Positions 5,914 through 58,153 of a stretch of DNA of 64,000 nt are shown piece after piece. Each line of letters starts with the position of its first letter. Within the stretch, counting starts at the first letter, position 1. The notes beneath the pieces were generated by a model, which searched no databases, was not told the origin of the DNA, and saw nothing but the letters and a program-made list of their open reading frames with translations. The DNA lies in assembly GCF_022601975.1 (NCBI RefSeq), contig NZ_JAKVIR010000006.1, positions 1 to 64,000 on the forward strand, in the 5' to 3' direction. Both the position numbers and the translations under genes were made by a program. This DNA comes from Pontibacter sp. E15-1. Its GTDB lineage: Bacteria; Bacteroidota; Bacteroidia; Cytophagales; Hymenobacteraceae.

Positions 5914-7287
5914 ATGAACAAATTCCATTATGCATTAACGGTAGTCTTGATCTTGATCGCCAGCGCCCTTCAAGCCGCTGAGATCAAGGTCAATTCCTTT
6001 GCTGAGTTAGCTACCTATACCTCGCAAAGCGGCAACGTGATTTCCATGAAACCGGGTGTCTATCAGCTGAATGATTATTGGACTGCGGATTCCATGCGTG
6101 TGCGGCATGACCGGAAGCAGTTTCAATTTCTCAATTTCAAAGGAGATAGTAACGTGTTTCAACTGGATGGAGTCACCATTGAGGTTGACAATGCCCTGCG
6201 TCTTGCCTTAAACGCACCCATCCATACCAGTTTATTTAAGGTGACGGGCAATCATAATACCATACAAGGCCTTCAAATCCGATATGTGGGAGAAGGCACC
6301 TCGCGTGGCGGGGCAGCTTTGGAGATTGCTGGCACGGGCACCGTGCTGAAAAAGCTGACGCTCCATGTCACAGGATCATCGCCCTATGGGTATGGCGATT
6401 TGCTGGGCAAGGGAGACAGAAGCCTGACCAAACTGAGAAAGCATAGTGGCCTGCTGATTACCGGTTCTGATACCAAACTCTACGACTGCAAAGTTTACAT
6501 GCGCTCTTTAGGGCATGCATTTTTTATCCAGGGTGGGATTGATAGCTATCTTGAAAATTGCTATGCCGAAGGTGAGATGCGATCTACCAATGATATGTTG
6601 AAAGAGACCTCAGGCCCGGCATTTGAGGAGGGCTTTGCGTCGATATACGAGGGTTACGATGGGAAGAAAAGCATTAAGCCCGACTATATGAAATCGTTAA
6701 ACGAATGTGGCTTTAGGACCTATGGGGCAGGCGGATCACCACGAAGGGAGACGGGTAAGGTAACCCTAGTCAATTGTACAGCAAAAAATATGCGGGTGGG
6801 TTTTGCACTGGCAGCTAATGAGGAAACGGCGCCTGTTACCCTGCGCGACTGTAAAGCCATTGCCTGTGAGCGTGGGTATTATTTGAGCAAAGCAGTGAGT
6901 GAAAATTGTAGCGGCGATATGTTATATGGCCCCTTGCTGTATCTGGTGGGCAACGAACGCTCACAAATAGATATGATCCTGGAACCGGGCGAGTCCAGGT
7001 ATAAAGTGCATGCCCTGGCCACTATATGCGGCACAGGCCATGAGGTATCCATCCAAACCAATAAAAAGACGAAAAAAATTACGGCTCCGATCATGTTGGG
7101 CTACGGTATGCCTGACTCCGGCGAAAACGCATCTCCCATACCAGAGGCGTATGCAGGAGATGTTACCCTCACGAACAAGACCTCAGCGCCGGTCATTGTA
7201 GGAGCAGAAGCAAAGAATTGTACGGTTGTGACGCAGGGCAAGGTGGAACGTAACAAAGGATCAAACATTGAAATTGTCGGGAAGTGA
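5914..7287 (+). CDS. Secreted right-handed beta-helix protein, paralogue 1 (putative polysaccharide-active enzyme)
   Basis: Signal peptide (cleavage after LQA), then about 435 residues with the repeating hydrophobic/Asn-Cys pattern of a right-handed parallel beta-helix. It is the first of four paralogues in the window. Shared landmarks are KPGVYQL near the N-terminus, YGYGDLLGKG, HSGLLITGS, G-H-A-F-F-I-Q with His201, and EGEMRSTNDMLKETSG with Arg223. The family position is not one I recognise. Parallel beta-helices near sulfatases and uronyl hydrolases are often lyases or glycoside hydrolases, so a catalytic role is inferred from fold and neighbours. A TTG 15 bp upstream is in frame, but the ATG at 5914 gives a clean signal peptide. 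The closest paralogue is the next gene, 64 bp downstream. Confidence 0.8.
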   Translation: MNKFHYALTVVLILIASALQAAEIKVNSFAELATYTSQSGNVISMKPGVYQLNDYWTADSMRVRHDRKQFQFLNFKGDSNVFQLDGVTIEVDNALRLALNAPIHTSLFKVTGNHNTIQGLQIRYVGEGTSRGGAALEIAGTGTVLKKLTLHVTGSSPYGYGDLLGKGDRSLTKLRKHSGLLITGSDTKLYDCKVYMRSLGHAFFIQGGIDSYLENCYAEGEMRSTNDMLKETSGPAFEEGFASIYEGYDGKKSIKPDYMKSLNECGFRTYGAGGSPRRETGKVTLVNCTAKNMRVGFALAANEETAPVTLRDCKAIACERGYYLSKAVSENCSGDMLYGPLLYLVGNERSQIDMILEPGESRYKVHALATICGTGHEVSIQTNKKTKKITAPIMLGYGMPDSGENASPIPEAYAGDVTLTNKTSAPVIVGAEAKNCTVVTQGKVERNKGSNIEIVGK

Positions 7288-7351
7288 TGCTGAAGATAGC
7301 GGGCGTTTTTAGCGCAGAAACTAAAGGGGAATCGAATAATTGACGATAAGG

Positions 7352-8722
7352 ATGATGAAAGGGTGTATTAAAAACGCAGTGCTGATCGCACTGATTTTGG
7401 TTTGCGGAATAGCAAAAGCTTCAGCCGTGTCTGTCAGCAGTTTGGCTGAATTAGCTTCGTATGCCGGCAAAAGCGGCAATGTGATCACCATGAAACCGGG
7501 TGTCTATCAGTTGACGGATTACTTGACGATGGATTCGATGCGGGTGCGGCATGACCGGAAGCAGTTTCAGTACATCACCTTCAGTGGCAGCAACAATACA
7601 TTCAACTTGGAGGGTGTAGAGATAGCAGTAGACACTGAATTGCGCACGGCATTGAATCCTCCCATTCATAGTGACGAATTCCTGGTTACGGGTAATGACA
7701 ATACCTTCAATGGGCTGACCATCAGATGCGTCGGGAATGGGACTTCACCTGGCGGAACGGTACTGCAGGTGGCCGGCACAGGCAATGTGCTGAAGGATAT
7801 GACCCTATACGTGGCTGGTTCCTACCCCTATGGGTATGGCGACTTGTTTGGCAAAGGCGGGGAAACCGTGATCAAACACAAAAAGCACAGTGGGCTTCTT
7901 GTCACCGGCAGCAATACCCGGCTTTATCGCTGTAAGCTGTACAACCGCTCTTTCGGGCATTGTTTTTTTGTGCAAAAAGGAGCAGAGAATGTATACTTCG
8001 AGGATTGTTATGCTGAGGGAGCGGTGCGCTCTACTGATGAAATCCTGGCGGAGACATCCGGGCCGGCAGTGGATGTGAACTTTAGAACCTGGACGCAAAA
8101 TCGTGAAGGTAAGTACGTGGTGACGCCAGGCTATATGAAATCGTTGAGCGAGGACGGTTTTCGCACGTATGGCGAGATCAAAAATATCCATTTCAAAAAC
8201 TGCACCGCCAAAAATACACGGGCCGGATTTGAGCTGCGGACCAATGGTGGGACCCGTCTGGAAAATTGCACCACTATAGGTACAGAGCGCGGCTACTGGG
8301 TAGGCGATGGTGCCATCGTGAAAAACTGTAAGGGAGATGCCAATTATGGCCCCTTGATGTTTGTGGAGGGAAGCAACGCAGACGTGGAACTGGTGGTAGA
8401 CACAGCTGAGTCGGACCGCCTGGTGCATGCACTGGTTACCATTCAAGGGAACAACAATAAAGTGGTGCTGAAATCCGAAAAGGGGTATAAGCGAAAGACT
8501 GACCTTCCAATTTTGGTAGGCTATACCCATCCGGAACATGGCGAATCGATGTCGCCCTACAGTGAAGGGAAAACGTCTGGTTTAAAATTGACAAATGAAA
8601 CCGGTATGCCGGTAAAGATCAGTGCGTTGGTGAGCAATAGCAAAATTATCACAGACGGGAAGGTGCTGGAAAATAACGGGAAGAATAACAAAATCATCAA
8701 AAAAGTGAGGACATCGCTTTAA
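7352..8722 (+). CDS. Secreted right-handed beta-helix protein, paralogue 2
   Basis: Close tandem paralogue of the preceding gene; the two share long near-identical stretches such as SMRVRHDRKQFQ and KPGVYQL. A signal peptide covers about the first 25 residues, and the rest is beta-helix coils. The family landmarks are present: YGYGDLFGKGG, HSGLLVTGS, G-H-C-F-F-V-Q with His203, and EGAVRSTDEILAETSG with Arg226. Here the second acidic residue of the STND motif is Glu rather than Asp. The in-frame TTG at 7340 is less likely than the double ATG at 7352/7355. A local duplication is the simplest origin. It may act on a different linkage or substitution of the same glycan as its twin (inference). 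Confidence 0.8.
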   Translation: MMKGCIKNAVLIALILVCGIAKASAVSVSSLAELASYAGKSGNVITMKPGVYQLTDYLTMDSMRVRHDRKQFQYITFSGSNNTFNLEGVEIAVDTELRTALNPPIHSDEFLVTGNDNTFNGLTIRCVGNGTSPGGTVLQVAGTGNVLKDMTLYVAGSYPYGYGDLFGKGGETVIKHKKHSGLLVTGSNTRLYRCKLYNRSFGHCFFVQKGAENVYFEDCYAEGAVRSTDEILAETSGPAVDVNFRTWTQNREGKYVVTPGYMKSLSEDGFRTYGEIKNIHFKNCTAKNTRAGFELRTNGGTRLENCTTIGTERGYWVGDGAIVKNCKGDANYGPLMFVEGSNADVELVVDTAESDRLVHALVTIQGNNNKVVLKSEKGYKRKTDLPILVGYTHPEHGESMSPYSEGKTSGLKLTNETGMPVKISALVSNSKIITDGKVLENNGKNNKIIKKVRTSL

Positions 8723-8942
8723 TGCATTAGCTGCTCAGTTTGCCGGGCACGTTGTCTTTTTTAGGTATGAGGTAGCGCTATTTCTGATGCCATGAAAATT
8801 TCAATTTACAAGATTCTTAAAGTACTTCAGGAGCGATTCAAACAGCAGTACCACCACACCGCGTGGCAAAATTAAGGAGGAATTTTGAGCCGCTAGCTAG
8901 TCAGCTGGATCTTTCGAAACCAAACAAAAAATAAAATAACAT

Positions 8943-9821
8943 ATGGTAAAGTCAATACTACTGCTCACCATCCAGGCTTTAATTTGCTTCGAACTTCAGG
9001 CACAGCTGTTGGGCCTACCGGCAGGTATTCAAAAAGATGGGCAGCCTGATACGATTACTTATAAAGTAGTTGATGAAGATACCCTGAAGATGATTTTGAG
9101 GTATCCGGATGAATTCAAGAACCGAAAAAAATATCCGGTAATCGTGTTCTTCTATGGAGGCGGATGGAATGGGGGTACTTTAAAGCAGTTTCAGCCAGAG
9201 GCAGAGTACTTTGCTTCGCGTGGTATGATTACGGTACTGGCTGATTATCGGGTACGGTCGCGGCACCAGACCACACCCTATGAGGCGGTGGCTGATGCCA
9301 AATCTGCCATGCGCTTTTTGCGGAAGTACGCTAAAGAGCTGAATATAGATCCCGATAAAATGGTTGCCTCCGGGGGCTCGGCAGGGGGGCATCTGGCAGC
9401 GGCCTGTGGCGTCTTGCCTGGCCTGGACGAAGAAGGAGAGGATCTGCGCATTAGCTCCAAAGCCAATGCCCTGGTACTTTACAATCCTGTATTCGATAAT
9501 GGTCCGGAGGGGTTTGAGCACGAGCGGATGGGTGATCGGTGGCAGGAGATCTCACCAGCCCACAACATCACGAAGCAAGCACCGCCTACCATCGTGTTTT
9601 TAGGTAAGGAAGACCACCTGATCCCGGTATCGGTGGTTGAAAATTATCAGGCGAAGATGGAGGAAGCTGGCCGCCGGTGTGAGCTTTTTTTATATGACGA
9701 TGCAGGGCACGGGTTCTTCAATAACTACAAGTACGACGGCAAGTTTTATACCCTAACGATTCGGGAAACAGACAAATTTTTAAGATCACTCAAGTACCTG
9801 AAAGGGCAACCGGAAATATAG
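8943..9821 (+). CDS. Secreted alpha/beta-hydrolase, esterase/lipase-like
   Basis: 292-residue alpha/beta-hydrolase with a signal peptide ending near residue 20. The oxyanion-hole segment reads FYGGGWNGG. The nucleophile elbow is GGSAGG with Ser146. The acid and histidine of the triad are probably Asp224 (KEDHLIP) and His256 (AGHGFF). These features match the acetyl-esterase-like carboxylesterase group often found in polysaccharide loci, where such enzymes remove acetyl or similar esters so that lyases and sulfatases can work. It lies between the beta-helix pair and the heparinase-like lyase. Ester specificity cannot be read from the sequence. Confidence 0.85.
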   Translation: MVKSILLLTIQALICFELQAQLLGLPAGIQKDGQPDTITYKVVDEDTLKMILRYPDEFKNRKKYPVIVFFYGGGWNGGTLKQFQPEAEYFASRGMITVLADYRVRSRHQTTPYEAVADAKSAMRFLRKYAKELNIDPDKMVASGGSAGGHLAAACGVLPGLDEEGEDLRISSKANALVLYNPVFDNGPEGFEHERMGDRWQEISPAHNITKQAPPTIVFLGKEDHLIPVSVVENYQAKMEEAGRRCELFLYDDAGHGFFNNYKYDGKFYTLTIRETDKFLRSLKYLKGQPEI

Positions 9822-9822
9822 C

Positions 9823-9945
9823 CAGGACTTTCGCATCTAATCGAAACACGGAGCGAAAGCAATCTACAGCCTGCCGTTGTTGTGTGTTCTCACCAACAAC
9901 TTGTTAGTCAAAAGACGCAAAAAGGGCAGCTTTGCGAAAGTCCTG
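9823..9945. repeat. Short element bounded by 13-bp perfect inverted repeats
   Basis: CAGGACTTTCGCA at 9823-9835 is repeated as its exact reverse complement at 9933-9945, enclosing a 123-bp non-coding unit that starts 2 bp after the esterase stop codon. The 11-bp core TGCGAAAGTCC recurs at 45542-45552. This suggests a MITE-like remnant or insertion-sequence ends. I see no clear target duplication and no transposase inside. Confidence 0.5.
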
Positions 9946-10165
9946 ATTGCAAGATGAAGGTATCACCAACCTCTCTTCTGTTTCTGGTGATTGATAGAGC
10001 AGACGCCAGTGGATTGCCCCAGAGAAGAAGGGACTGCCCGCCGGATCGGGGCGGAGCCAGTAAACGAGGGGCAAATCACAGTGAAATACAGCCTCGTGCT
10101 GTGGAAAATTGCCAGCCCCAAATCCACGACATCCCCACAGGGTATAAAAATAGAAGAAACATTTT

Positions 10166-12895
10166 ATGAAGAGGTTTTCGATACTTTTAGCTGCACTACT
10201 TTCAATTTCATTTTGTGTCCAGGCCCAAATTCCCTTACCCAAGAGTCTGGAAAAGGGCTATCCGCGCATTTATACGACACAGGGGGGGAAGAAAGAGCTT
10301 CAGAAAACCATCAACAAGGAGAAATGGGCGCAGGAGGTACTGTCCGGCATCCATGACAGAATAGATGAGCACGTGGCCCGCCATGTAACCGACCCGGAGT
10401 GGATGGTGTCGCGGCTGCAAATGTACTGGAAAACTAAAGCCACCAACGTCTACATCGATGGCGTGGATTACTCGCATGCAGATGGGCAGGCCCCGGTTCC
10501 GACTGTTCGCTTCACGGGTTCGCGCAACTCCCATACCCTGTATGGCAAACCCAAGCTGGAAGATATCCAGCCATACATGGACGACCCAAGGGGACTGTAC
10601 CTGCCCAACAAAAGCAAAGAGGGCCATCCGTTTGAGTGGGTGGAGGAATCGAAAACAGGCAATATCATTGTGGCGATCAATCAGGAAATCATGGAACTGG
10701 CCCGTGATGCTGCTTTCATCTATTGGCTGGAGAACGACCCAAAATACGCCCGGTTTGCCTATGATATTTTCCATACCTACATGGAAGGCATGTCCTACCG
10801 CAGCGAACCTATTGATTTGCTGAATGGCCATATCCAGACGCTCGTCGGGTTCACTCATTTCCAGGTCATCCACGAAAGTACGCTTCGGGAGGTCGCTGTT
10901 TTATATGATTTTCTGCACCCATACATCGAGGCCAACCACCCGCAAAACATCGCCATGTATGATAAAACGATCAAGCGTTGGGCTGATCAGATTATCAAAA
11001 ACGGGGTGCCTCAAAACAACTGGAATCTCCATCAAGCCAAAATCATACTAAAAGCAGCCATGGTGCTGCAAGACAATGCGCGGTATGCAGATGGCAAAGG
11101 CCGGGAATACTATATCGACTACATCCTGAATGTCACCTCTCCGCGGCAGTGGTCACTGACGAAGTTTTTGGAGTATGGGTATGATTTTGAAAATGGCGTA
11201 TGGGCGGAGTGCCCGGGCTACTCACAGGGCGTTACCAAAGACCTGACCAACTTCATCGAAGACTTTGACCACACGTTCGACCACAACATACTGCCCTATA
11301 TGCCGGTGATGGACGAGGCGGTGAAAATGTTGCCGCAGTATCTGTTTCCGAATGGGCAGACGGTAGCCTTTGGTGATAGTTACTATGGCCCCGTGACCAC
11401 GGAGCCAATGAGTGATATGATCCGGATAGCGCAGAAAAACGGCGATGCAAAGCGGGAAAAGGAATATACGGCCATGCACCGGCTGTTTGCCGAAGACCAT
11501 GAAGACGGGCAAGGCGGGAAGCCACGGGCAGAGATAGCCTCTTTTTTTGCCAGTAAGCCGCTCAAACTGAACCCCAAGTATAAAAAGGCAGAAAAGGCGG
11601 ATTACATGACGCAGACGTTTTACGCACCCAATGTGAGCTGGCATGTGCAGCGCATGGGCGAAGGAAAAGACGGTATGATGGTCTCGCTGAATGGCTCTCT
11701 GGGTAACCACATGCACGCCAACGGCATTAATATGGAGCTTTACGGCAAGGGGTTCGTACAGGGCGCCGATCCGGGTAAAGGTGGTAACTACTTGCAGCCG
11801 ATTTATTTAGAATACTATTCGCAGTTTCCGGCGCACAATACCGTCATGGTAGATGGGGCGTCTTCTTATACCGAGATGCTCAGCTATCATGCCTTTGACC
11901 TGATGGGGGAATATCCCAAAACAGAAAAGAAAGCGGGGTACTATCCGGGCATCACCTATTCTGATGTGTACTTTCTGGAGCCGGAAACCCGCAGCGACCA
12001 GAGCCGCCTGGTGAGCATCGTGAAAACAGGTGAGGCGACTGGGTATTATATTGATGTGTTCCGGTCCCGTAAGCAGCGAAAAGGCGACAAGTTTCATGAC
12101 TATTACTACCACAACCTGGGGCAAAGCATGGAGCTGCTAGATGAAGCAGGCGCGCCATTGGCACTTACGCCGAACGAAGAGATGGCCTTTGCCGGAGGGC
12201 ACCTTTATGCCCTGGATTATATGTGGGACAAAAAGTCCGTGCGAACAAACGAGGATTACCAGGCGCAATGGAAAATCGACATGCCCGATGGCAAGGACGA
12301 TGTGCTGATGAACCTGTGGATGATGGGAACTGAGGGGCGCGAAGTGTTTAGCATCAAGTCTCCCCCAAACAAAGCCTTTCACGGTGACAGTGGCTTGCCC
12401 TATGAGGTGGGCGAACAGCCATACCTGACGCTGGCCGCCCGGCAGCATGGCGAGGCCTGGGAGCGCCCGTTCGTGTCGGTTTATGAGCCTTATACCTCTG
12501 GCAAAGGAAAAAGCATCGCCAGCATCGACGGGTTTGAAGATGAAAATGGGAGCAGTGAGTTTGTGGGCATCAACGTGAAGCATAAGTCCGGGCGCGAAGA
12601 CCATGTATTCTCGACCAAAAATGGAGCGCAGGCCAGCTACAAGGGTATGGCCACTGACGCTAGCTACGCGCTGGTTGGAGCGGAAAAACAGGGCGATCTC
12701 ATTTTGTTTATGGGCAATGGGCAACTCCTGAAAGGCAAGGGTTTTACCATCAGCGCAACCAAAACCGGCAATGTGGTGCTGGAGAAAAAAAACGGAAAGC
12801 TGCTGCTGCATAATGAGGTGCCGGTGAGCATCAGTAATGGTGAGAGGGAGCAAAAGTTTGAACCGGGAGACTATCGGGAAATAAGCTTGAACTAA
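10166..12895 (+). CDS. Heparinase II/III-family polysaccharide lyase-like protein
   Basis: 909-residue secreted protein (signal peptide ends VQAQ) with the two-part layout of heparinase II/III-type lyases: an all-alpha toroid, roughly residues 25-450, and a beta-sandwich from about 480. Likely active-site segments are NNWNLHQAK (Asn284-His289) in the toroid and NHMHANGINMELYG (His515, His517, Asn519) at the start of the beta domain, where such lyases place catalytic and metal-binding residues. These lyases cut uronate-containing polysaccharides by beta-elimination, leaving 4,5-unsaturated ends. The two GH88 enzymes downstream in the window would remove those ends. The exact PL family is uncertain; PL12, 15, 17, 21 and 39 share the fold. 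The protein is longer than most, with about 130 C-terminal residues left to assign. Confidence 0.8.
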   Translation: MKRFSILLAALLSISFCVQAQIPLPKSLEKGYPRIYTTQGGKKELQKTINKEKWAQEVLSGIHDRIDEHVARHVTDPEWMVSRLQMYWKTKATNVYIDGVDYSHADGQAPVPTVRFTGSRNSHTLYGKPKLEDIQPYMDDPRGLYLPNKSKEGHPFEWVEESKTGNIIVAINQEIMELARDAAFIYWLENDPKYARFAYDIFHTYMEGMSYRSEPIDLLNGHIQTLVGFTHFQVIHESTLREVAVLYDFLHPYIEANHPQNIAMYDKTIKRWADQIIKNGVPQNNWNLHQAKIILKAAMVLQDNARYADGKGREYYIDYILNVTSPRQWSLTKFLEYGYDFENGVWAECPGYSQGVTKDLTNFIEDFDHTFDHNILPYMPVMDEAVKMLPQYLFPNGQTVAFGDSYYGPVTTEPMSDMIRIAQKNGDAKREKEYTAMHRLFAEDHEDGQGGKPRAEIASFFASKPLKLNPKYKKAEKADYMTQTFYAPNVSWHVQRMGEGKDGMMVSLNGSLGNHMHANGINMELYGKGFVQGADPGKGGNYLQPIYLEYYSQFPAHNTVMVDGASSYTEMLSYHAFDLMGEYPKTEKKAGYYPGITYSDVYFLEPETRSDQSRLVSIVKTGEATGYYIDVFRSRKQRKGDKFHDYYYHNLGQSMELLDEAGAPLALTPNEEMAFAGGHLYALDYMWDKKSVRTNEDYQAQWKIDMPDGKDDVLMNLWMMGTEGREVFSIKSPPNKAFHGDSGLPYEVGEQPYLTLAARQHGEAWERPFVSVYEPYTSGKGKSIASIDGFEDENGSSEFVGINVKHKSGREDHVFSTKNGAQASYKGMATDASYALVGAEKQGDLILFMGNGQLLKGKGFTISATKTGNVVLEKKNGKLLLHNEVPVSISNGEREQKFEPGDYREISLN

Positions 12896-12995
12896 ACCAG
12901 GTAGAGTCCGTGATTTTTGATAAATGAGATGCTATGCGCTATCAGGTAGTAGGGTCACTGTGAATTGACCTGTATGAATATGTAATAAAGAGGGT

Positions 12996-14657
12996 ATGAA
13001 AATAACGAAACTAAAAACAACATTATTTACTGGCTTGGCAGTGGGGCTTCTGGCAACTATTGGTTCATGCGTCACAAACAAGGAGTCGGCAGAAGAGAAA
13101 CAAAGACCTAACATTCTTTTCATCATGTCGGACGATCATGCCTACCAGGCCATCAGTGCCTATGGCAGTAAGTTGATCGAGACACCCAACATAGATCGGA
13201 TTGCCAAAGAGGGCATGCTGTTCACCAACGCTAGCGTGACCAACTCCATTTGCGCACCGTCAAGAGCGACGATTCTTACCGGAAAACACACGCATATCAA
13301 TGGGAAGATAGACAACCTGATGCCGTTTGACACCACGCAGGTGACCTTTCCGCAGATTTTTCAGGCCAATGGCTATCAGACGGCCATGTTTGGGAAATTA
13401 CATTTTGGCAATAATCCAAAGGGCGTAGACGAGTTCATGATCCTGCCTGGGCAGGGCTATTATCTGAATCCTGATTTCAGTACGCCTCGGGGCGACACGA
13501 CCATCATGGGCTACGTCACCGATGTGATCACGGATCTCACACTCAACTGGCTTAAAAAAGAGCGCGATCCGGAAAAGCCGTTTATGATGATGTATATGCA
13601 CAAGGCGCCGCACCGCCCTTGGTGGCCAAAGCCTGAAAAGTTTGCCGAGTTCACCAAAAAGCAATTCCCGGAACCAGAAACCTTGTTTGACGACTACGAA
13701 AACCGGGGCACTGCCGCCAAAACTGCTGAAATGAACCTGCTGACGCACATGATGTACAGTCATGATAGCAAGATCAGACCCGAACTGATCGAGAAGATGG
13801 GGGACAAGGTGACTCCCCAGGTAGAGGAGTTTGAGAATGGGTTTTACGGTCCGTATGGCAGGGCCACTGCGGAGCAAAAAGCACAGTATGACCCTACGCT
13901 GGATTCGATCAACGCATTCTTCGAAGCCAACTGGCCCAACATGACGGAGAAAGAGAAGATGCGTTGGAAGTACCAGCGGTATATGCAGGATTACCTCGCC
14001 ACTATTTCCTCGGTTGATGACAATGTGGGAAGAATCCTCGACTACCTGGATGAGAGCGGACTGGCCGAAAATACCATTGTGGTATACACATCGGATCAGG
14101 GCTTTTACCTGGGCGAGCACGGTTGGTTCGACAAGCGCTTCATCTATGATGAGTCTTTCAAAACCCCACTGATGATCCGTTGGCCAGAGCGTGTAGCTGC
14201 CGGTGCGGTGGAAGACGAAATGGTGCAGAATCTGGATTTCGCACAGACCATGCTGACTGCGGCTGGTATTACGCCTCCGACAGATATGCAGGGTGAAAGC
14301 CTGATGCCACTGCTGACCGGTCAAAAAGAAAAGTGGACCCGAGACGCGGTCTATTATCACTATTATGAATACCCAAGTGTGCACATGGTTAAGCGCCATT
14401 ATGGGATTGTAACCAAAGAGTATAAACTCGCTCACTTCTACTACGATATCGATGAGTGGGAGCTTTACGATCGGCTGAAAGACCCGCAGGAAATGAACAA
14501 CGTTTTCGACGATCCGGCCTATGCAGATGTGGTCGCAGAGTTAAAAGTAAAGTTAGCGGACCTTCGCAAGCAGTATAAAGACTCACCGGAGCTTGATCAG
14601 AAATACATCGACATATATAAAAACATGCAGGTGAAGAAGGGCAATGACTTTTGGTAA
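12996..14657 (+). CDS. Type I (S1 family) sulfatase, lipoprotein
   Basis: 553-residue sulfatase with a lipoprotein signal (lipobox ending IGSC). The maturation motif is C-A-P-S-R with Cys86 in NSICAPSRATILTGKH, and metal-site residues lie in IMSDDHAYQ. The MHKAPHRPWWP and TSDQGFYLGEHGWFDKR segments recall the glucosamine-6-sulfatase-like branch (S1_8/S1_11 type), which would suit a glycosaminoglycan-like or ulvan-like substrate; this subfamily call is by eye and weak. Its stop codon is 11 bp before the next start, so it is probably co-transcribed with the third beta-helix gene. The two sulfatases of the locus differ in length and C-terminal architecture, so they probably remove different sulfates. 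Confidence 0.92.
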   Translation: MKITKLKTTLFTGLAVGLLATIGSCVTNKESAEEKQRPNILFIMSDDHAYQAISAYGSKLIETPNIDRIAKEGMLFTNASVTNSICAPSRATILTGKHTHINGKIDNLMPFDTTQVTFPQIFQANGYQTAMFGKLHFGNNPKGVDEFMILPGQGYYLNPDFSTPRGDTTIMGYVTDVITDLTLNWLKKERDPEKPFMMMYMHKAPHRPWWPKPEKFAEFTKKQFPEPETLFDDYENRGTAAKTAEMNLLTHMMYSHDSKIRPELIEKMGDKVTPQVEEFENGFYGPYGRATAEQKAQYDPTLDSINAFFEANWPNMTEKEKMRWKYQRYMQDYLATISSVDDNVGRILDYLDESGLAENTIVVYTSDQGFYLGEHGWFDKRFIYDESFKTPLMIRWPERVAAGAVEDEMVQNLDFAQTMLTAAGITPPTDMQGESLMPLLTGQKEKWTRDAVYYHYYEYPSVHMVKRHYGIVTKEYKLAHFYYDIDEWELYDRLKDPQEMNNVFDDPAYADVVAELKVKLADLRKQYKDSPELDQKYIDIYKNMQVKKGNDFW

Positions 14658-14668
14658 TATTAGCTGTG

Positions 14669-16495
14669 ATGACAAAGCGAAAAATCTATAATAATAGCTG
14701 GTGGCTCGGCCTAAGCCTTGCGTTGTGTATGCTCGCACAGTGTCTGCAGGCGCAAAGTACCAGCCCAAAGAGTCTTTGGCAAGTGCGCTATGAAGGTGAC
14801 GCCATCGTTAACCCGAAGCATGATCAGGTCATAAAGCCGGATGGCTTTTCCGTAAACTCCCATACATCAGGCGCCTATAACGTGTATGTGCATAGGGTGT
14901 TAAAGAAGCCGGTGCGTCGGATCTCCTTCAGCTATCGCGCTGAAGGGGCGGTGACAAAGGCACCCATCAGATTGATGGATGCCGGCGCCAATGTGCTGTG
15001 GCAACACGATGCATCGGGCACCTCATCAGGCTCTGTCACCCTGAGCGACCTGAACGTGCATGGGCAATTGGTTTTTCAGATCGGTGGTCGGGAGGCGAAT
15101 CCTTCAGACGTGATGACGGAGTATAGCATCAGCGATTTTCAAATCACAGAAGGGAAAATAGAGCCGAAGAAAGATGCAGATGGCTTTGTTGTGATTGACA
15201 ACCTGACCGACCTCAGAAGTTATGCCACACAGGACGGCGTGAAGGTGCGGCTAAAGCCGGGGCACTACCAGTTGGACAAAGCGTATTGCAGGCAGTTTAT
15301 ACAGTTTACGGGCAGCAACTCGGTATATGACCTGAGGGGTGCCAATATCATGGTAGACACCAGGTTGTTTAGTCGTACGGACTTGGCTCCGGGTATAAAC
15401 GATGCGGTAATGTATTGCGCCATTGCCATACATGGCGACGGTGTGCAGATAGAAGGCCCGTATGTAGAGACCTATGGAGACACACCCGGCCATCAGAGCC
15501 GCAACAAGGTTTTTAACCTCACAGGCAAGAACGTCACCCTGAAAAACGCCGAGATACGTACCGCTGGCTCAAACCCCTGGGGGTATGGCAGCTTTTACGG
15601 ACTTGGTGGTGGAGACGTCCGCAAGATGAACGGTATCCGCATCGCCTGGCCTGGCGAGAACATCAAAGTAATCGGGTGCAAAGTGCACATGCGGGCGATG
15701 GGACATGCCATTTTTGTGCAGGGAGCCAAAAACACGTTGATTGAAGACTGCCATGTGGATGGCTTGCTGCGAACGACAAATGATATCCTGGCGGAAACTT
15801 CGGGATACGCTTTCGATAAAAATTTCAAGGCGCACCGGGGCGGGTACATTGAAGGGGTGATGGTAGCGGACGATGGGGCCTTTTTGCCCGGGGAGATGTA
15901 CTCGCTGAGCGAAGACGGCATTCGGGTATATCCGCAAGCCCAGAAAGGGGCTAACACTGCCACAGGCTCCACCACGATTAAAGACTGCACCGTTACCAAC
16001 ATGCGACGCGGGATTTGTACGGGACTTAATACAGCCGGTGACAAAGTCATCAACTGTAAAGTCACGAATTGCGTTGCCGCCGGTTTTAATGTGGGCAATG
16101 CCGACACGCTCATCAACTGCAGCGCTGACGCCAAGTATGCAGAGGCTTTCTGCATCCCATACGTCGATGCCCGAAATGCCTACGTGGAGGGAACCATACT
16201 AGACAGCCGGGGAGGTATGAAAAACGAGTTGCTGGTAAAAATCAACGGGTCTGGGCATGAGGTGAAAATCCAGACGGCTGATCCTGCTTTTATACCGGAG
16301 CAAATGCAAATCAAACTTTCCACCTCCGAGAGCTATGGCGGCCCATGGGATGGCAGCCCGACACATGCGAAGGAGATCACCTTGAAAAATAAAACCAAAG
16401 CTCCAGTCGTGCTCCTGCCCGGAACGGAGAAGGTGCAGCTGGAGAGTGAGGGAAATGTTTTGGATGAGTCTAAAAATAAGCGCAAATCGAAATGA
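14669..16495 (+). CDS. Secreted right-handed beta-helix protein, paralogue 3, with N-terminal extension
   Basis: Third member of the family, about 608 residues. A signal peptide ending LQAQ is followed by an extra N-terminal beta-sandwich-like module (about 35-170), then the beta-helix from about 180. Landmarks are YGSFYGLGGG in place of YGYGD..GKGG, GHAIFVQG with His346, and DGLLRTTNDILAETSG with Arg368. The His-to-Arg spacing is 22, as in paralogues 1 and 4. The lysine-rich K-x-H-S-G loop of the other members is altered to MNGIRI, so substrate contacts may differ. The ATG at 14669 is chosen over an in-frame TTG at 14651, which overlaps the sulfatase. The stop overlaps the next start by 4 bp (ATGA). 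Confidence 0.8.
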   Translation: MTKRKIYNNSWWLGLSLALCMLAQCLQAQSTSPKSLWQVRYEGDAIVNPKHDQVIKPDGFSVNSHTSGAYNVYVHRVLKKPVRRISFSYRAEGAVTKAPIRLMDAGANVLWQHDASGTSSGSVTLSDLNVHGQLVFQIGGREANPSDVMTEYSISDFQITEGKIEPKKDADGFVVIDNLTDLRSYATQDGVKVRLKPGHYQLDKAYCRQFIQFTGSNSVYDLRGANIMVDTRLFSRTDLAPGINDAVMYCAIAIHGDGVQIEGPYVETYGDTPGHQSRNKVFNLTGKNVTLKNAEIRTAGSNPWGYGSFYGLGGGDVRKMNGIRIAWPGENIKVIGCKVHMRAMGHAIFVQGAKNTLIEDCHVDGLLRTTNDILAETSGYAFDKNFKAHRGGYIEGVMVADDGAFLPGEMYSLSEDGIRVYPQAQKGANTATGSTTIKDCTVTNMRRGICTGLNTAGDKVINCKVTNCVAAGFNVGNADTLINCSADAKYAEAFCIPYVDARNAYVEGTILDSRGGMKNELLVKINGSGHEVKIQTADPAFIPEQMQIKLSTSESYGGPWDGSPTHAKEITLKNKTKAPVVLLPGTEKVQLESEGNVLDESKNKRKSK

Positions 16496-18825
16496 AGAAT
16501 AACATACATAAAACAGCCTTTGTACTTTTATCGGTGCTGGCTTGTAGTTGCAGTACACCAAAGGTAAACGAGCAGGAGCAGGTTAGCGCAAGGCCAGCGT
16601 TTAACCCTAACCCTACCGGAGCGTATCTGTCGCCTGAAGAAAGTATGAAAACCATGCATCTTCCCGAAGGCTATCATTTAGAACTGGTAGCCAGCGAACC
16701 TATGATTAAAGAGCCGGTTGCCATCGCCTGGGACGGGAACGCCAGAATGTATGTAGCCGAAATGATTACCTATATGCAGGATGCGGATGCCTCCGGGGAA
16801 CAGGAGCCTTTCAGCCGTATATCGCTTTTGGAGGATACCGACAATGACGGGAAAATGGACAAAAGCACTGTTTTTATAGATAGCCTTTTGTTGCCCCGGA
16901 TGCTGCAGTGCGTGAATGATGAACTGCTGGTGAATGAAACGAACACCATCAACATCTACAGCTATAAAGATACTGACGGAAATAGCAAGGCTGATGTAAA
17001 AAAGGTAGTGTACAGAAACGATACGTATGGCGTGAACGATGCCAACATGGAGCACCAGCGGAGCGGCCTGGACTGGAACCTCGACAACTGGATGTATGTC
17101 ACGTATGATCCGGTGCGCTTCCGGTATACAAACGGCACCATGAAAGCCGACACCCTCATCAGTGGCGGGAACGGGCAGTGGGGCGTAACCCATGACAACT
17201 ATGGACGGGTATACTACTCCAAGGCTGGAGCAGAAATTCCGGCTGCTGGTTTCCAAATCAACCCTGTTTATGGCACGCTTGATTTTGCAGATCAGTATAG
17301 CGCGGAGTTTGCGGAGGTATGGCCCATTATGGCCACCCCGGATGTGCAGGGCGGGAACAAAAGGCTACGACCCAACAACACGCTCAATCATTTCACGGCT
17401 GCTTGCGGACAGTCGATTTTCCGGGGGGATCGCCTACCGGAGGATTTGGTTGGCGACTACATCGTTTGTGAACCAGTGGCACGGGCCATCAGGCGCGCCA
17501 AAGTGATAAACCAGCAAGGTAAAGTAAAGCTGGAGAATGCTTATCATCAGCAGGAGTTCATCGTCTCCTCCGATATGAACTTCCGCCCGGTAAACACTGC
17601 CACAGGCCCGGACGGAAATCTATACATCGTAGACATGCACCGGGGAATTATACAGCAGGGCAACTGGACAAAGCCAGGCTCTTTCCTGCGCCACAAGATC
17701 GACAGCCTCGGTTTGGCTGAGAATGTAGGCCATGGCCGAATTTACCGCGTAGTGCACGACGACTTTAAGCGAGGACCTAAGCCAAACATGCTGGATGAGT
17801 CTAGCAAAGAGCTTCTGGGGTATCTGAAGCACCCGAACGGGTGGTGGCGTGATGAAGCGCAAAAGTCAATCGTTACCCGTGGCGATAAGTCAGTGATTCC
17901 TGCATTAAGAAAGATGGCAGCCGGGGAGTCTGGATTTTTTGAAAAGAAGCCAGGCCATCTTGCCAGGATACATGCCTTATGGACATTAGAAGGTTTGGAT
18001 GCAATTGATAAAAACATCCTGTCAGCCGCTCTGAAAGATGAGCATGCGCAGGTTAGAAGAACAGCTGTATTGATCAGTGAGCCCTATATGAGAAAGAATG
18101 ATGGGCAGTTGATGCAACAGGTAGGGGCGCTTGCCAATGATGCGGATTACGATGTGCGCGTGCAATTGCTGCTCTCCTTGTACAACAGCCCATCTGAAAA
18201 GGCGAAAGCGATAGTTCAGGAGATACTCGAGCAGAATGCAGCAAATGAAATGCTCACAGCTACCAAAACTGCCCTGGATAATAACGAAGGCGTGCGAACG
18301 TATGGGAGCAAGTTGGGTGCACTGGCGCAGGCAGACAGGGAGCTGATCCTGAATGGTGCGGCTACTTTCAAATCCATTTGTGCGAGTTGCCACGGTCCTG
18401 ACGGGAAAGGTTTAGCCATTGGAGGTTCTACAATGGCCGCTCCACCACTTGTAAAGTCAAAGCGATTGGCTTTCATAGAAAAAAAGACCGCCGCCAGAAT
18501 TTTGCTTCATGGCTTGTCTGGCCCTGTCGACGGTAAATCATACTCTAGTGTAATGCCAGCCATGGAAGCGAACAGTGATGAATGGATAGCCTCCGTCTTG
18601 AGTTACATCCGATTCGAATTTGGCGGCAAGGTTCCACGGGTGCCTACTACAGATGATAAGGCAGCAGGTTTTACCGAACGGAAACCCCTTTCCCCTGTAG
18701 TTACCCCGGAAGAGGTTCAGGAAGTCAGAAAAGAAAACAGCGGAAGAAACAAAGCCTGGACTTTAGCAGAACTGGAAGCGACAAGCAAAAAGGATGCTGC
18801 CTCGCCGGGAGCATCCGCACTATAA
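16492..18825 (+). CDS. Lipoprotein dehydrogenase with HEAT-like repeats and cytochrome c domain (Pirellula/Verrucomicrobium type)
   Basis: 777-residue lipoprotein (signal ending VLACSC). The N-terminal part, about 45-430, is a six-bladed-propeller-like dehydrogenase domain with Asp-rich calcium-type loops such as DTDNDGKMD and DTDGNSKAD, as in the membrane-bound dehydrogenase family common in Planctomycetes and Verrucomicrobia. A HEAT-like helical stretch follows (about 440-600). A class I cytochrome c domain then carries C-A-S-C-H (Cys630, Cys633, His634) and later a Met-containing segment. Family members are thought to oxidise sugars or alcohols and pass electrons to a heme. The ATG overlaps the stop of the beta-helix gene, indicating translational coupling and possible oxidation of the same glycan products. 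That link is inference. Confidence 0.82.
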   Translation: MKNNIHKTAFVLLSVLACSCSTPKVNEQEQVSARPAFNPNPTGAYLSPEESMKTMHLPEGYHLELVASEPMIKEPVAIAWDGNARMYVAEMITYMQDADASGEQEPFSRISLLEDTDNDGKMDKSTVFIDSLLLPRMLQCVNDELLVNETNTINIYSYKDTDGNSKADVKKVVYRNDTYGVNDANMEHQRSGLDWNLDNWMYVTYDPVRFRYTNGTMKADTLISGGNGQWGVTHDNYGRVYYSKAGAEIPAAGFQINPVYGTLDFADQYSAEFAEVWPIMATPDVQGGNKRLRPNNTLNHFTAACGQSIFRGDRLPEDLVGDYIVCEPVARAIRRAKVINQQGKVKLENAYHQQEFIVSSDMNFRPVNTATGPDGNLYIVDMHRGIIQQGNWTKPGSFLRHKIDSLGLAENVGHGRIYRVVHDDFKRGPKPNMLDESSKELLGYLKHPNGWWRDEAQKSIVTRGDKSVIPALRKMAAGESGFFEKKPGHLARIHALWTLEGLDAIDKNILSAALKDEHAQVRRTAVLISEPYMRKNDGQLMQQVGALANDADYDVRVQLLLSLYNSPSEKAKAIVQEILEQNAANEMLTATKTALDNNEGVRTYGSKLGALAQADRELILNGAATFKSICASCHGPDGKGLAIGGSTMAAPPLVKSKRLAFIEKKTAARILLHGLSGPVDGKSYSSVMPAMEANSDEWIASVLSYIRFEFGGKVPRVPTTDDKAAGFTERKPLSPVVTPEEVQEVRKENSGRNKAWTLAELEATSKKDAASPGASAL

Positions 18826-18973
18826 AAGTAGAAGTGAATTTCTGTTAACAAGCAGTTGGTTTTGACCATGATAAGAGACGGTGAAGCCTGAAAATCGCTG
18901 TATAAATCAAAGTGGGAGATGATTTATAGCCTGCGGATTATAATTTATACCTATTTCTATCTATTCTGAAGAT

Positions 18974-19017
18974 ATTGAGCTGTGTTTGAGAGTGTTCGAA
19001 TACAGCTCAATTTTTTT
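18974..19017 (+). terminator. Hairpin terminator just before the fourth beta-helix gene
   Basis: A 10-bp perfect stem (ATTGAGCTGT with ACAGCTCAAT) is followed by seven T residues at 19011-19017. It lies about 150 bp after the dehydrogenase stop and only 11 bp before the next start codon, so it may end the upstream operon, act as a leader attenuator, or both. Confidence 0.8.
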
Positions 19018-19028
19018 AAAGCCACTTA

Positions 19029-21749
19029 ATGATAGAAAACATGGAAATTATCTCTACAGACAGTTCAGATCAATTAAAAGGATTTCGAAAAGTATTTTGG
19101 CTTACCATGGTGCTTATTTTTTTAGGCATTAGTTCACAGGCGCAAACCTTCGTCAATACTTTGGCAGAGTTAGAGCCATACCTGGATGACGACAACGTTC
19201 ATGTGAAACTAGCGCCGGGTACCTATACTATTACGGCTGCCGATGTGACGGAAGGCCGTATTGGCAGCACGAGTGAAACCTGGAGTAACGTGAGCCGGCT
19301 CTTTGCATTCAAGGGCAACAACAGCGTGTATGATTTCACGGATGTAAAGTTTGAAATTGATACTGAAATTTTGCGTGCTTTTGGGAATCAGGATGTTTAT
19401 GAGCTGCATATTACCGGTAGCGAAAATGTCATTAAAAACCTGACGATTGAAGATATGGGCAACACCCATCCGGCCAATCGTGCTACCAGCATTGTTGTTG
19501 ACGGCCTTGCAAACAGACTGGAAGGCATTCACATGACGGTAAGGGGCTCTTTCCCGTATGGGTATGGCGATGCTTTCGGTAAAGGAGGAGGTCCGGTGAT
19601 AAAACACTATAAGCATAGTGCTCTTTTGGTTCGGGGTGAAAGTAACCATATAAAAGATTGTAGAATTATCCATCGGTCTTATGGCCATGCCATTTTTATG
19701 CAGGCGGCTTCTAACCCGCTTATTGAGGGATGTTATGTGGAAGGCGAGATGCGATCAACGGATGATATGCTGACTGAGGAAGGAACAGGCTCTCCGGCAG
19801 ATAAGGTAGGGTTTATGACCGTTTGGGGGTATAAGCTTCCTGCCGGTTACATGCTTAGCACTGGAGAGGCAGGTATACGCGCCTATAACGCGGGACAAAC
19901 CATAGTGGATGGCGAATTTTTTAAGAGGGGAACTTCGAATCCAACAGTAGTAAACTGTACCATAAAAAACATGAGAACCGGGGTGACCCTTGCTCATGCT
20001 GCAGGAACCATATACGTTGAAGGAACAACTGCTATCGGGTGTGAGAATGGATTTTCACTAGGATCTGGCGATGTAGTTGATTGCAAAGCCGACTGTACCT
20101 ATGGCCCTGTGTATTCCTCTACGTATGAGTCGGATAGGAACTACAATGCAAACATAGAGATTCTTCCTTCGAGTGCCCCTTATTACAATGGTTCGGGAAC
20201 TGTAGCTTACATCGGTGGTAGTGGCCATGAAATAACATTACACGGTGCTACGGAAGCGCTGGAGCAAGGCCTGAAAATAAAAGTGGGAGGAGATAAAAAC
20301 AATATTCGATTATTGTATGGTAATCTCCCGCACCAAAACAACTTCTCAGCCTCTGACTTTCAATTAAACAACTTCACGGAGTATCCCATCGAGCTGTCTG
20401 ATGAGACCTCAGGCGTGACAGGAGAGTCGTGTGGGCCTGTTGTGGATGCGGGAACAAACAACAACATTAATGATAATGACTGTAGCGGAAAATTAGTTGC
20501 CCCCTGGAGTAACAGCGATATAGGTGGGGCTGATGTGAATGGTAGCGCCAAGGACTTAGGAGGGATATTCACCATCAGTGGTGCCGGAAATCATCAAAAC
20601 AAATTGAAGGATGAGTACCATTTTGTGTATCAGGAATTGAGTGGGGATGGAGTGATCACCGCGAAAATAGGCTCCCTGGATGCCGTGCATCCGTGGTCTA
20701 CTGCTGGTCTGATGATGCGGGAAGATGTAAGCGATGATAAATCTAAGTTTGTGATGATCAGCACAACAGCAACTAAAGGGGAGTTATTTAAAAGCAGAGA
20801 GCAAGCAGACCGGCCGTTGAATGAAATGAATACCGCTAATGGCGTGGAAGCAAAATGGCTTCGATTGGAAAGATCAGGCGATACGATTACGGCCTATAAG
20901 TCTGTTGATGCCTTGGAATGGGTAGAAATTAGTCAGGATACCGTTCCTATGAACGACCAAATCTTTGTTGGCCTGTGTGTGTCATCAGGCAATAAATCAA
21001 AGGCCGCAACAGCAAAATTTAAAGCAGTCACCATAGAAACCCCACTTATCCAACAAGGAAAAACCTACTATTTAGTAAGCCCACGCTGGAATTCGAAATT
21101 GGCTGCTAACGGAGGAGATAAACCCTATACCACAGCAGTGGATGCTACGGGGGCTCATGTGGAGTGGGCTATAAAGAAAAGCGACGTAGAAGGCTACTAT
21201 TACTTAGAAAGTAATGGTGCGGCAGAACTCTCCAGATTGGCGTCTGACAAAACGAGTGCAATCATGGTAGCTAATTCTGCCGCTAGTCCCTTGACAAGAT
21301 GGGAATTCAACGAATTTGCTGAGGGCATTTATTGGGTAAGTACAGAGGACAAAACGAACCCAAATTTACAAGCCTTTGGTGATGGCACAGTAGCCGTGAC
21401 TACAGGAACGGGTAGTTATACTAGATTCCAGTTAGTACTAGTGTCAGATCCTGTTGGCAAACAAACCAGCATTGTCCCTCAACAACTAGTGACAGCGCAG
21501 AAACAATTGCATTCGGAAGTGAGTGTTTATCCTAACCCTGTTACAGACCAATTGAAAATTGATCTCTCATTGTCTCGCAACTATCAGTACGAACTCGTTA
21601 ACATGTCGGGGCGGGTAGTAGAGCAAGGCGAAATCAAGAAACATCAGAACCGTTTCGCAATTGATATGTCTGGCATGGAAAACGGACTATACTTATTCCG
21701 TTTAACTGGCAATGATTCACAGGAAACTTTAAAAATACTCAAAAAGTAA
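19029..21749 (+). CDS. Right-handed beta-helix protein, paralogue 4, with DUF1349-like module and T9SS sorting domain
   Basis: 906 residues. After an uncleaved-looking basic N-terminus, a signal segment ends near SSQAQ. The beta-helix (about 45-470) keeps the landmarks YGYGDAFGKGGG, KHSALLVRG, GHAIFMQ with His220, and EGEMRSTDDMLTEEG with Arg242. A DUF1349/concanavalin-like module follows (about 480-665: WSTAGLMMREDVS, FVGLCVSSGN), then a beta-trefoil-like or other binding segment (about 670-800). A T9SS type A domain (VYPNPV near 835 to the end) sends it to the surface or medium. It is the only paralogue in the group with T9SS export, so it may meet the intact polymer first. Its base use is more AT-rich than its neighbours. 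Confidence 0.82.
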   Translation: MIENMEIISTDSSDQLKGFRKVFWLTMVLIFLGISSQAQTFVNTLAELEPYLDDDNVHVKLAPGTYTITAADVTEGRIGSTSETWSNVSRLFAFKGNNSVYDFTDVKFEIDTEILRAFGNQDVYELHITGSENVIKNLTIEDMGNTHPANRATSIVVDGLANRLEGIHMTVRGSFPYGYGDAFGKGGGPVIKHYKHSALLVRGESNHIKDCRIIHRSYGHAIFMQAASNPLIEGCYVEGEMRSTDDMLTEEGTGSPADKVGFMTVWGYKLPAGYMLSTGEAGIRAYNAGQTIVDGEFFKRGTSNPTVVNCTIKNMRTGVTLAHAAGTIYVEGTTAIGCENGFSLGSGDVVDCKADCTYGPVYSSTYESDRNYNANIEILPSSAPYYNGSGTVAYIGGSGHEITLHGATEALEQGLKIKVGGDKNNIRLLYGNLPHQNNFSASDFQLNNFTEYPIELSDETSGVTGESCGPVVDAGTNNNINDNDCSGKLVAPWSNSDIGGADVNGSAKDLGGIFTISGAGNHQNKLKDEYHFVYQELSGDGVITAKIGSLDAVHPWSTAGLMMREDVSDDKSKFVMISTTATKGELFKSREQADRPLNEMNTANGVEAKWLRLERSGDTITAYKSVDALEWVEISQDTVPMNDQIFVGLCVSSGNKSKAATAKFKAVTIETPLIQQGKTYYLVSPRWNSKLAANGGDKPYTTAVDATGAHVEWAIKKSDVEGYYYLESNGAAELSRLASDKTSAIMVANSAASPLTRWEFNEFAEGIYWVSTEDKTNPNLQAFGDGTVAVTTGTGSYTRFQLVLVSDPVGKQTSIVPQQLVTAQKQLHSEVSVYPNPVTDQLKIDLSLSRNYQYELVNMSGRVVEQGEIKKHQNRFAIDMSGMENGLYLFRLTGNDSQETLKILKK

Positions 21750-23421: not shown

Positions 23422-24786
23422 ATGAAAAAAATGACTAGCCTGATTCTCTCAGGTATATTGATGCTTTGCTTTTCTTGTTCTCAAACAGTACCCAAAAATG
23501 AAGAAATAACGGAAGCAGAACCGCTCCCAAAAGATGAGCGAATGGAATGGTGGCGAGATGCCAAGTTTGGGATGTTCATCCATTGGGGGGCGTATGCTGT
23601 GCCTGGTGGCGAAAGAAATGGCGAGATCTGCAAGGGAGGGGCTGAGTGGATCATGGATAAGCTGGACTACACGATCGAAGACTATGAAAAGGAAGTAGTA
23701 GCCAATTTTAATCCTACTCAGTTTGATGCAAAAAGATGGGTAGCCATGGCTAAAGACGCAGGAATGAAATACATTGTTCTCACGTCCAAGCATCATGATG
23801 GTTTTTGTCTGTGGGACTCAAAAGTGTCAGACTATGATATCATGGAAGCTTCCCCGTTCAAACGAGACATTGTTCGGGAGTTATCAGATGCTTGTAAAGA
23901 GGCAGGAATTAAGTTCGGTTTATACCACTCCATAGTGGATTGGCACCATCCCAACGCCCAGGCGCCCTTGTATCCTAACTACAATGCCGGACAGAAAGAT
24001 TCTACGGCATTTAACCCGGATTTCCCGAAGTACTACGAAAACTACCTGAAGCCTCAGGTGAAAGAGCTTTTGACCAATTATGGAGATGTGGACGTGGTAT
24101 GGTTTGACGGAGATTGGATCCCGGATTATACCACTGAAATGGGGAAAGACATGTACAGCATGATACTGGATATCCAACCTCAAACCATTGTTAACAACAG
24201 AGTGGACAAAGGTCGTAAGGGTATGGAAGGCATGGACAAAGAGGGAAATTTTGCAGGCGACTTTGGCACTCCTGAACAAGAAATACCTGCGACAGGTATA
24301 GCTTCTGATTGGGAGTCGTGCATGACCATGAACGGTTCCTGGGGGTATAAGCCATCAGACACTAACTGGAAGAGCAGCGAAACACTCATCGAGAACTTAG
24401 TAGATATCGTGTCGAAAGGGGGCAACTTTCTGTTAAATGTTGGCCCCGATCCGCAAGGATTATTCCCCCAAGAAAGTGTAGAGCGTCTTGCAGCCCTTGG
24501 TGACTGGACAGACACGAATGGTGAAGCGATATATGGTGCCAAGGCAAGCCCGTATGCCAGGCCGGATTGGGGCAGGTATACAAGCAAGGACGGTGTTATT
24601 TACGCACATGTGTTTGATTGGCCTAAGGATGGAAAACTGACCATCAACAGCGATATCAAGGCTAAGAAAATAACGCTTGTGGCTGATGCGGCACAAAACC
24701 TTAGTTACAACGGAGAAAAATCTCAAATCACGCTGCCTGGGCAAGCTCCAGATGCATACGTGTCCGTGGTCAAAATTGAATTGTAA
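23422..24786 (+). CDS. GH29 alpha-L-fucosidase, lipoprotein
   Basis: 454-residue fucosidase that releases terminal alpha-L-fucose. The lipoprotein signal ends CFSCS. Family landmarks include EWWRDAKFGMFIHWG near residue 40, LTSKHHDGFCLW, and VVWFDGDW with Asp229 as the expected nucleophile. The GDFGTPEQEIP segment may carry the acid/base glutamate, and GGNFLLNVGPDPQG closes the barrel. The C-terminal beta-sandwich is short. It lies alone between its own promoter region and a terminator, so it is a single-gene unit. Fucose removal alongside sulfatases suggests a fucosylated, possibly sulfated glycan, but the substrate is not fixed by the sequence. Confidence 0.93.
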   Translation: MKKMTSLILSGILMLCFSCSQTVPKNEEITEAEPLPKDERMEWWRDAKFGMFIHWGAYAVPGGERNGEICKGGAEWIMDKLDYTIEDYEKEVVANFNPTQFDAKRWVAMAKDAGMKYIVLTSKHHDGFCLWDSKVSDYDIMEASPFKRDIVRELSDACKEAGIKFGLYHSIVDWHHPNAQAPLYPNYNAGQKDSTAFNPDFPKYYENYLKPQVKELLTNYGDVDVVWFDGDWIPDYTTEMGKDMYSMILDIQPQTIVNNRVDKGRKGMEGMDKEGNFAGDFGTPEQEIPATGIASDWESCMTMNGSWGYKPSDTNWKSSETLIENLVDIVSKGGNFLLNVGPDPQGLFPQESVERLAALGDWTDTNGEAIYGAKASPYARPDWGRYTSKDGVIYAHVFDWPKDGKLTINSDIKAKKITLVADAAQNLSYNGEKSQITLPGQAPDAYVSVVKIEL

Positions 24787-48978: not shown

Positions 48979-48996
48979 CATGTTAAGGTAAAGACA

Positions 48997-50727: not shown

Positions 50728-50780
50728 CAGGCCATACTAAAGTTTGAAGTTCTTGTCAGACGCTTAACTATTTGAACTAT

Positions 50781-53675: not shown

Positions 53676-53700
53676 TTTTGAAACGAAAGATAACCTAGAG

Positions 53701-55383: not shown

Positions 55384-55521
55384 CATAGCCTGTCATGGAG
55401 TTGGCTAACAAGAATAGCCTGTGCTTGAATATGGCTACGCATGCGCGGTTATCTCCTAAAACTGCTTAGCTATATCAAGAGGCGAGACTTTTGAGGTTTT
55501 AATTCATAAGTAAGCATAACA

Positions 55522-56691: not shown

Positions 56692-56741
56692 GAGTAGTGT
56701 AATCTATCGACAAACTGAGAAATAAAGATCTAATATAATAT

Positions 56742-58058: not shown

Positions 58059-58092
58059 TTTAAACTGTGTCATTTCCATACTTCAATTCACT

Positions 58093-58135: not shown

Positions 58136-58153
58136 ATACCCATGAGGTGCTTC

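Follow-up and report, generated by a model that had tools for sequence, protein, structure and literature searches.

FdlA-type fucoidan lyase relatives in a gene cluster of Pontibacter sp. E15-1, one of them from a subfamily that lacks Lys141, the proposed base

Four genes for beta-helix proteins are located between positions 5914 and 21749 of a 64,000 nucleotide stretch of the Pontibacter sp. E15-1 genome (contig NZ_JAKVIR010000006.1, positions 1 to 64,000), hereafter called the window. All are encoded on the + strand, as are the neighbouring genes described below, and genes and proteins are named by their start positions. The genes at 5914–7287 (457 residues) and 7352–8722 (456 residues) stand in tandem. 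They are followed by a gene at 14669–16495 (608 residues), whose product carries an N-terminal beta-sandwich resembling carbohydrate-binding modules (CBMs), and by one at 19029–21749 (906 residues), whose product contains a DUF1349-like region below the Pfam cut-off and a type IX sorting domain assigned by Pfam. AlphaFold models, built for the 5914 and 14669 proteins, show N-terminal helices, and all four proteins are probably secreted or surface-bound. The four genes add members to an existing family, that of the fucoidan lyase FdlA.

An earlier note, made from the DNA sequence alone, had placed open reading frames (ORFs) at these four starts and grouped their products by shared landmarks. 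The ORFs are present and their products form a homologous set, with identities of 51, 30 and 32% to the 5914 protein and 66 invariant columns. The proposed pair of His and Arg was found at 201/223, 203/226, 346/368 and 220/242, corresponding to spacings of 22, 23, 22 and 22. Other landmarks held in part. Y-G-Y-G-D-x-x-G-K-G-G is literal in two of the four proteins, with the variants YGYGDLLGKGD in the 5914 protein and WGYGSFYGLGGG (W-G-Y-G-S-F-Y-G-L-G-G-G) in the 14669 protein, and E-G-x-x-R holds in three, the 14669 protein having D-G instead of E-G before the Arg. The codons of the WGYGSFYGL loop span 15578–15604, and the ungapped alignment pairs this loop with YGYGDAFGK of FdlA. As a check against chance, we searched stop-to-stop stretches of at least 150 residues, leaving out those on the family list. 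GH[AC]xFxQ and R[ST]T[ND][DE][MI]LxE occurred together in six of these 1348 stretches, all six being the four window genes under duplicate names.

Comparison with the sequences of solved structures revealed the identity of the set. All four proteins match FdlA (nine structures, PDB 7XZ7–7XZF) over about 400 residues, with best E values of 3.2e-50 (5914), 9.3e-51 (7352), 1.7e-30 (14669) and 1.5e-177 (19029). Identity to FdlA over the catalytic domain amounts to 61% for the 19029 protein and 29–32% for the other three. The models that AlphaFold gave for the 5914 and 14669 sequences have mean predicted local distance difference test scores of 91.9 and 87.6. They superpose on FdlA with Z 46.8 and a root-mean-square deviation (rmsd) of 2.4–2.5 over 418–419 residues, and with Z 42.6 and rmsd 2.8 over 403 residues, respectively. 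Foldseek gave best E values to FdlA of 6.0e-29 and 1.1e-23. The next fold was in both cases AlgE4 (Z 28.2 for the 5914 model, 30.1 for the 14669 model). A right-handed beta-helix, as the earlier note had assumed, is thus predicted by the models for these two proteins and by homology to FdlA for the 7352 and 19029 proteins. All four are probably polysaccharide lyases (PLs), one of the two kinds of enzyme that the earlier note had considered. The suggestion of a new family was rejected, since all four match FdlA in sequence and two superpose on it in structure.

General libraries indeed hold no name for the family. Over the helix, three of the four proteins scored above a Pfam cut-off, in each case with the generic PF13229 (Beta_helix) alone, and no NCBIfam model exceeded its cut-off there. 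A match to a described CAZyme family had been named as the result that would overturn the novelty. FdlA is such a match in substance, though not to the letter, as it carried no CAZy number at the time of the 2022 structure paper, whose authors considered it a potential new lyase family (PMC9410043). Word searches of the available papers gave no later PL number for FdlA. The string Fdl is absent from the main text of a review from 2025 on enzymes that degrade fucoidan (PMC11943901), and the accessible parts of papers on Pontiella agarivorans (PMC10880615) and on GH141 endo-fucanases (PMC12786026) yielded nothing on the FdlA family.

FdlA from Flavobacterium sp. SA-0082 and the four proteins share the right-handed beta-helix, a similar length and the same landmark motifs. 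Both FdlA and the 19029 protein have a C-terminal sorting domain of type IX (Por); FdlA is reported with an F5/8 type C domain (PMC9410043) where the 19029 protein has its weak DUF1349 match. The 14669 protein differs from FdlA by the loss of D137 and K141 and by the added N-terminal CBM-like domain, which gave partial Foldseek matches over about 150 columns to CBM61, CBM4 and similar modules. The mannuronan C5 epimerases AlgE4 and AlgE6 and PL6 lyases, among the next structural neighbours of the two models, are also uronate-active right-handed beta-helix proteins, but they reach only Z 23–30 (42–47 for FdlA) at 11–16% identity.

According to the structure paper (PMC9410043), FdlA acts on sulfated fucoglucuronomannan, where it cuts the alpha-1,4 linkage that joins mannose to glucuronate. 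The product is a trisaccharide made up of an unsaturated glucuronate, a sulfated fucose and a mannose. Eleven residues were mutated there. Eight mutants at D137, K141, H176, F179, E236, R240 and Y242 had almost no activity, whereas an Ala mutant of Arg272 was reported active; Y242 was proposed as acid and, with reserve, K141 as base. Arg198 and Lys151 are not among the mutated residues, and the text of the paper does not name Arg198. The chemistry is disputed, since a 2018 study observed degradation of Sargassum and Fucus fucoidans by FdlA and FdlB without a 232 nm signal and argued for endo-fucanase action with cleavage of fucosyl bonds (PMC6267234).

All seven essential residues are found in the 5914, 7352 and 19029 proteins; in the 5914 protein D162, K166, H201, F204, E264, R268 and Y270 correspond to D137, K141, H176, F179, E236, R240 and Y242 of FdlA. 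The 14669 protein retains five of them (H176, F179, E236, R240 and Y242) and has S308 in place of D137 and L312 in place of K141. The residues it keeps are K319, H346, F349, R368, E415, R419, Y421 and R446. Judged by these positions, the 14669 protein is classed as a homologous subfamily member and not as a fucoidan lyase proper. The His of the signature described earlier is the essential His176 of FdlA; its Arg, as Arg198, is almost invariant in the family but was not mutated in FdlA. By homology to FdlA, the conserved residues would lie together in one groove, as the earlier note had asked.

To place these differences in the family, a collection with one genome per species was scanned with two peptide patterns covering His176, Phe179 and Arg272. 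The best 80 of 91 relatives, at 75 loci, were used, a set from which distant members are missed and which is smaller than the family. They belong to Bacteroidota, Verrucomicrobiota, Planctomycetota and Kiritimatiellota. Together with the window and further loci of its own genome, these loci contained 143 ORFs matching a profile of the four proteins, corresponding to 134 unique domains and, with FdlA, 135 rows. Two fragments were left out of the counts, leaving 133 full-length rows including FdlA; one fragment has Thr at position 240. Subfamilies were taken from a quick tree with several long branches, built from the 109 rows left after removal of redundancy at 90%, since a coverage filter on the long 19029 query made a neighbour list count too few members of subfamily A. 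It resolves subfamily A (FdlA and the 19029 protein), B (5914 as B1, 7352 as B2), C (14669), D and a small E. Support by the Shimodaira–Hasegawa-like approximate likelihood ratio test is 100 for B, C and D.

All 133 rows contain Lys151, His176, Glu236, Arg240, Tyr242 and Arg272, and 132 contain Arg198; the only row without Arg198 comes from locus L030 (1992–7763) and falls in no subfamily. Lys141 is missing from 37 rows, comprising 26/26 of subfamily C, where D137 is replaced in every row as well, and 11/11 of D. Every full-length row of A, B and E has Lys141, as does the single unassigned row. This contrast was not produced by the search, since it recurs in the 41 rows lying outside both search patterns (Lys141 in 21, Arg198 in 40, and Lys151, His176, Glu236, Arg240, Tyr242 and Arg272 in all 41). 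An alignment artefact was also considered and rejected: a loop pattern returned the same letters as the alignment in 129/133 rows, and the four rows it missed, read by eye, show I, I, K and I at the Lys141 position. While the quick tree separates C and D, a tree joining them has the higher likelihood (p of 0.837 in the approximately unbiased test), so that one change at Lys141 may suffice; C and D may form one clade.

As far as the alignment tells, Lys141 is a subfamily trait, and the His/Tyr/Arg/Glu core with Lys151 and Arg198 is a family trait. With Lys141 absent across C and D and the core family-wide, Lys141 is unlikely to be the general base of the family, unless C and D carry out other chemistry. 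Arg272, which mutation showed to be dispensable in FdlA, is among the invariant residues; it may matter only when the enzyme acts on its natural substrate. Literature searches by name found no characterised enzyme of subfamily C.

The genome of Pontibacter sp. E15-1 contains six FdlA-family genes from three subfamilies, four of them in the window cluster. The other two, both of subfamily A, lie on a second contig (locus L084, contig C7) at 7983–9410 and 15168–17849, where they adjoin genes for GH95, GH97, a SASA esterase, DUF6250 and a heparinase II/III-like protein; the first has Glu at the Asp137 position. In a search of 58 other genomes, 36 from the same genus and 22 from the same order, family members turned up in a single genome, which belongs to the same genus. 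This patchy distribution suggests that the family probably moved horizontally.

The neighbouring genes code for further enzymes of glycan degradation. Two sulfatases assigned by Pfam, both with a CAPSR active-site motif, are encoded at 3976–5796 and 12996–14657, and an alpha/beta-hydrolase of BD-FAE-like esterase type (Pfam) at 8943–9821. The product of 10166–12895 is a PL40-like lyase by sequence match, with the ulvan lyase Uly1040 as best solved relative (E 9.3e-34). Homology extends over most of the protein, and the alignment has NW, Y, D and H-x-H columns that may correspond to the catalytic residues listed for Uly1040 (PMC12915356). PL40 ulvan lyases are related to this neighbour and not to the four beta-helix proteins, and the relative found here stands in a cluster of fucose type rather than ulvan type. 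Downstream, Pfam assigned a GH29 alpha-L-fucosidase (23422–24786), a major facilitator superfamily sugar transporter (29279–30643), a second GH88-family protein (30724–31977), a ROK-family protein, possibly a sugar kinase (33346–34344), and a hybrid two-component sensor/regulator, the probable regulator of the cluster (35650–39789). A GH88-type unsaturated glucuronyl hydrolase at 28011–29228 was identified by its best solved relative 3WIW (E 6.5e-86). The protein encoded at 24890–27274 is a GH141-like beta-helix protein, in which GH141_M scores below the Pfam cut-off; its relatives in the PDB are 9RX2 (E 7.5e-25) and BT_1002 (E 1.1e-11). Its C-terminus carries a PDZ domain, a seemingly unusual pairing for a glycan-degrading enzyme.

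Further observations concern the surroundings. The gene at 165–3500 lies by the start of the contig, so that its 5' end may be cut. Its large product combines five domains of CBM6/CBM35 type with two of CBM3 and a type IX sorting tail, and Pfam found no catalytic domain in it. Between two of the beta-helix genes, 16492–18825 codes for a DUF7133 protein of PVC type that contains a cytochrome c domain; its relatives occur in 2/75 related loci. Two tandem SusC/SusD pairs followed by three GH43-family matches, one of them below the Pfam cut-off, occupy 45907–62000, probably a separate utilisation locus.

Up to 10 kb on each side of the family genes, sulfatases were found in 47/75 related loci, PL40-like genes in 15/75 and the esterase in 15/75. 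As no background rate was measured, only the frequent sulfatases carry weight. A PL40-like gene lies near a subfamily C gene in 4 of 25 C-bearing loci, which suggests that the two may act together. In a genome of the same genus (locus L085, 312–10509) a subfamily C gene and a PL40-like gene stand directly side by side, and a SusC/SusD-like pair comes after them.

We infer the activity, the elimination chemistry, the substrate and a division of labour among the subfamilies as follows. With a probability of about 0.82, the four proteins are FdlA-type secreted lyases that degrade sulfated fucoglucuronomannan together with the neighbouring enzymes, the 14669 protein carrying out the elimination without Lys141. 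They would bind a sulfated, glucuronate-containing glycan of brown algae, most likely sulfated fucoglucuronomannan, in a groove and cleave the mannose-alpha-1,4-glucuronate bond through a beta-elimination that produces a 4,5-unsaturated glucuronate. The sulfatases, GH88, GH29, the GH141-like protein and the PL40-like lyase would then dismantle chain and oligosaccharides. The trisaccharide released by FdlA fits GH88, GH29 and the sulfatases, and this set could take it to monosaccharides. In the 14669 protein elimination probably relies on the His176/Tyr242/Arg240/Glu236 core, with help from Arg198 or Lys151, and is directed at a stretch of the chain with other substituents. A sulfated uronate glycan had already been proposed as substrate; the homology to FdlA, together with sulfatases, PL40-like lyase, GH88 and GH29, fits fucoglucuronomannan.

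Several observations weigh against this assignment. The 5914, 7352 and 14669 proteins are only 29–32% identical to FdlA, so that their substrate may differ, and the 14669 protein lacks two residues, D137 and K141, whose single replacement kills the activity of FdlA. GH29, GH141-like and GH88 genes occur in no more than 10/75, 7/75 and 6/75 related loci, and the pathway is therefore not a fixed neighbourhood. Finally, the 2018 work remained negative at 232 nm, on fucoidans not known to have mannose-glucuronate bonds (PMC6267234). The same result is the argument for regarding the four proteins as glycoside hydrolases, that is, endo-fucanases in which the FdlA fold hydrolyses fucosyl bonds. We consider this improbable. 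The structure paper describes the trisaccharide product and fits its mutational map to elimination (PMC9410043), the cluster contains a PL40-like lyase as well as an unsaturated glucuronyl hydrolase of GH88 type, and Glu236, as the only carboxylate among the charged residues invariant in the family, would suit elimination better than a carboxylate pair. A cluster aimed at ulvan, to which the relationship of the 10166 protein with Uly1040 could point, is the least likely of the alternatives. GH29, the GH141-like protein and four FdlA-like genes stand against it, and no rhamnosidase family appeared among the Pfam matches of the 29 scanned window proteins. Ulvan and fucoglucuronomannan both contain 1,4-linked glucuronate, and a PL40-like enzyme could thus have been recruited to the latter.

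For subfamily C two further explanations have to be weighed. The 14669 protein might bind the glycan without catalysis, as its extra CBM-like domain and the replacement of both D137 and K141 throughout the subfamily would suggest, D137A and K141A being reported as inactive in FdlA (PMC9410043). Yet the seven core positions K151, H176, R198, E236, R240, Y242 and R272, picked once the conservation across the family was known, are invariant in 22/22 non-redundant C rows, in which only 96 of 380 usable columns are invariant. A loss of catalysis is not expected with such a core, and a mere binding function appears unlikely. Somewhat less likely still is that subfamilies C and D perform a related reaction on uronates, such as C5 epimerisation, which shares proton abstraction with elimination. 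The loss of the proposed base could alter the outcome of the reaction, and the nearest folds of the 14669 model besides FdlA are AlgE4 and AlgE6 (Z 30.1 and 29.8). The same epimerases, however, come next for the 5914 model, which bears K141 (Z 28.2 and 27.9), and the fold therefore does not single out subfamily C. We prefer FdlA-type elimination for all four proteins.

Tentatively, and at somewhat less than even odds, a broader picture of the family can be drawn. It would fall into two parts, one with and one without Lys141, which both act on uronate glycans and are driven by His176, Tyr242, Arg240 and Glu236 with Arg198 and Lys151. C and D would then represent an undescribed activity, be it on another linkage, on another sulfation or as C5 epimerisation, used beside the classical fucoidan lyases. 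If the Lys141-lacking part acts on uronate glycans, the base tentatively published for FdlA is not general, and the active site predicted for the 14669 subfamily likewise speaks against a general role of Lys141.

Fucoidan lyases are hardly known; the only ones described in the literature found are FdlA and FdlB, which come from a single strain. The family alignment sorts the residues kept by all members from those kept by some subfamilies, and among the conserved sites are Lys151 and Arg198, which have no mutants in the structure paper (PMC9410043). With this sorting, both the identity of the catalytic base and the disagreement over lyase or hydrolase action become directly testable.

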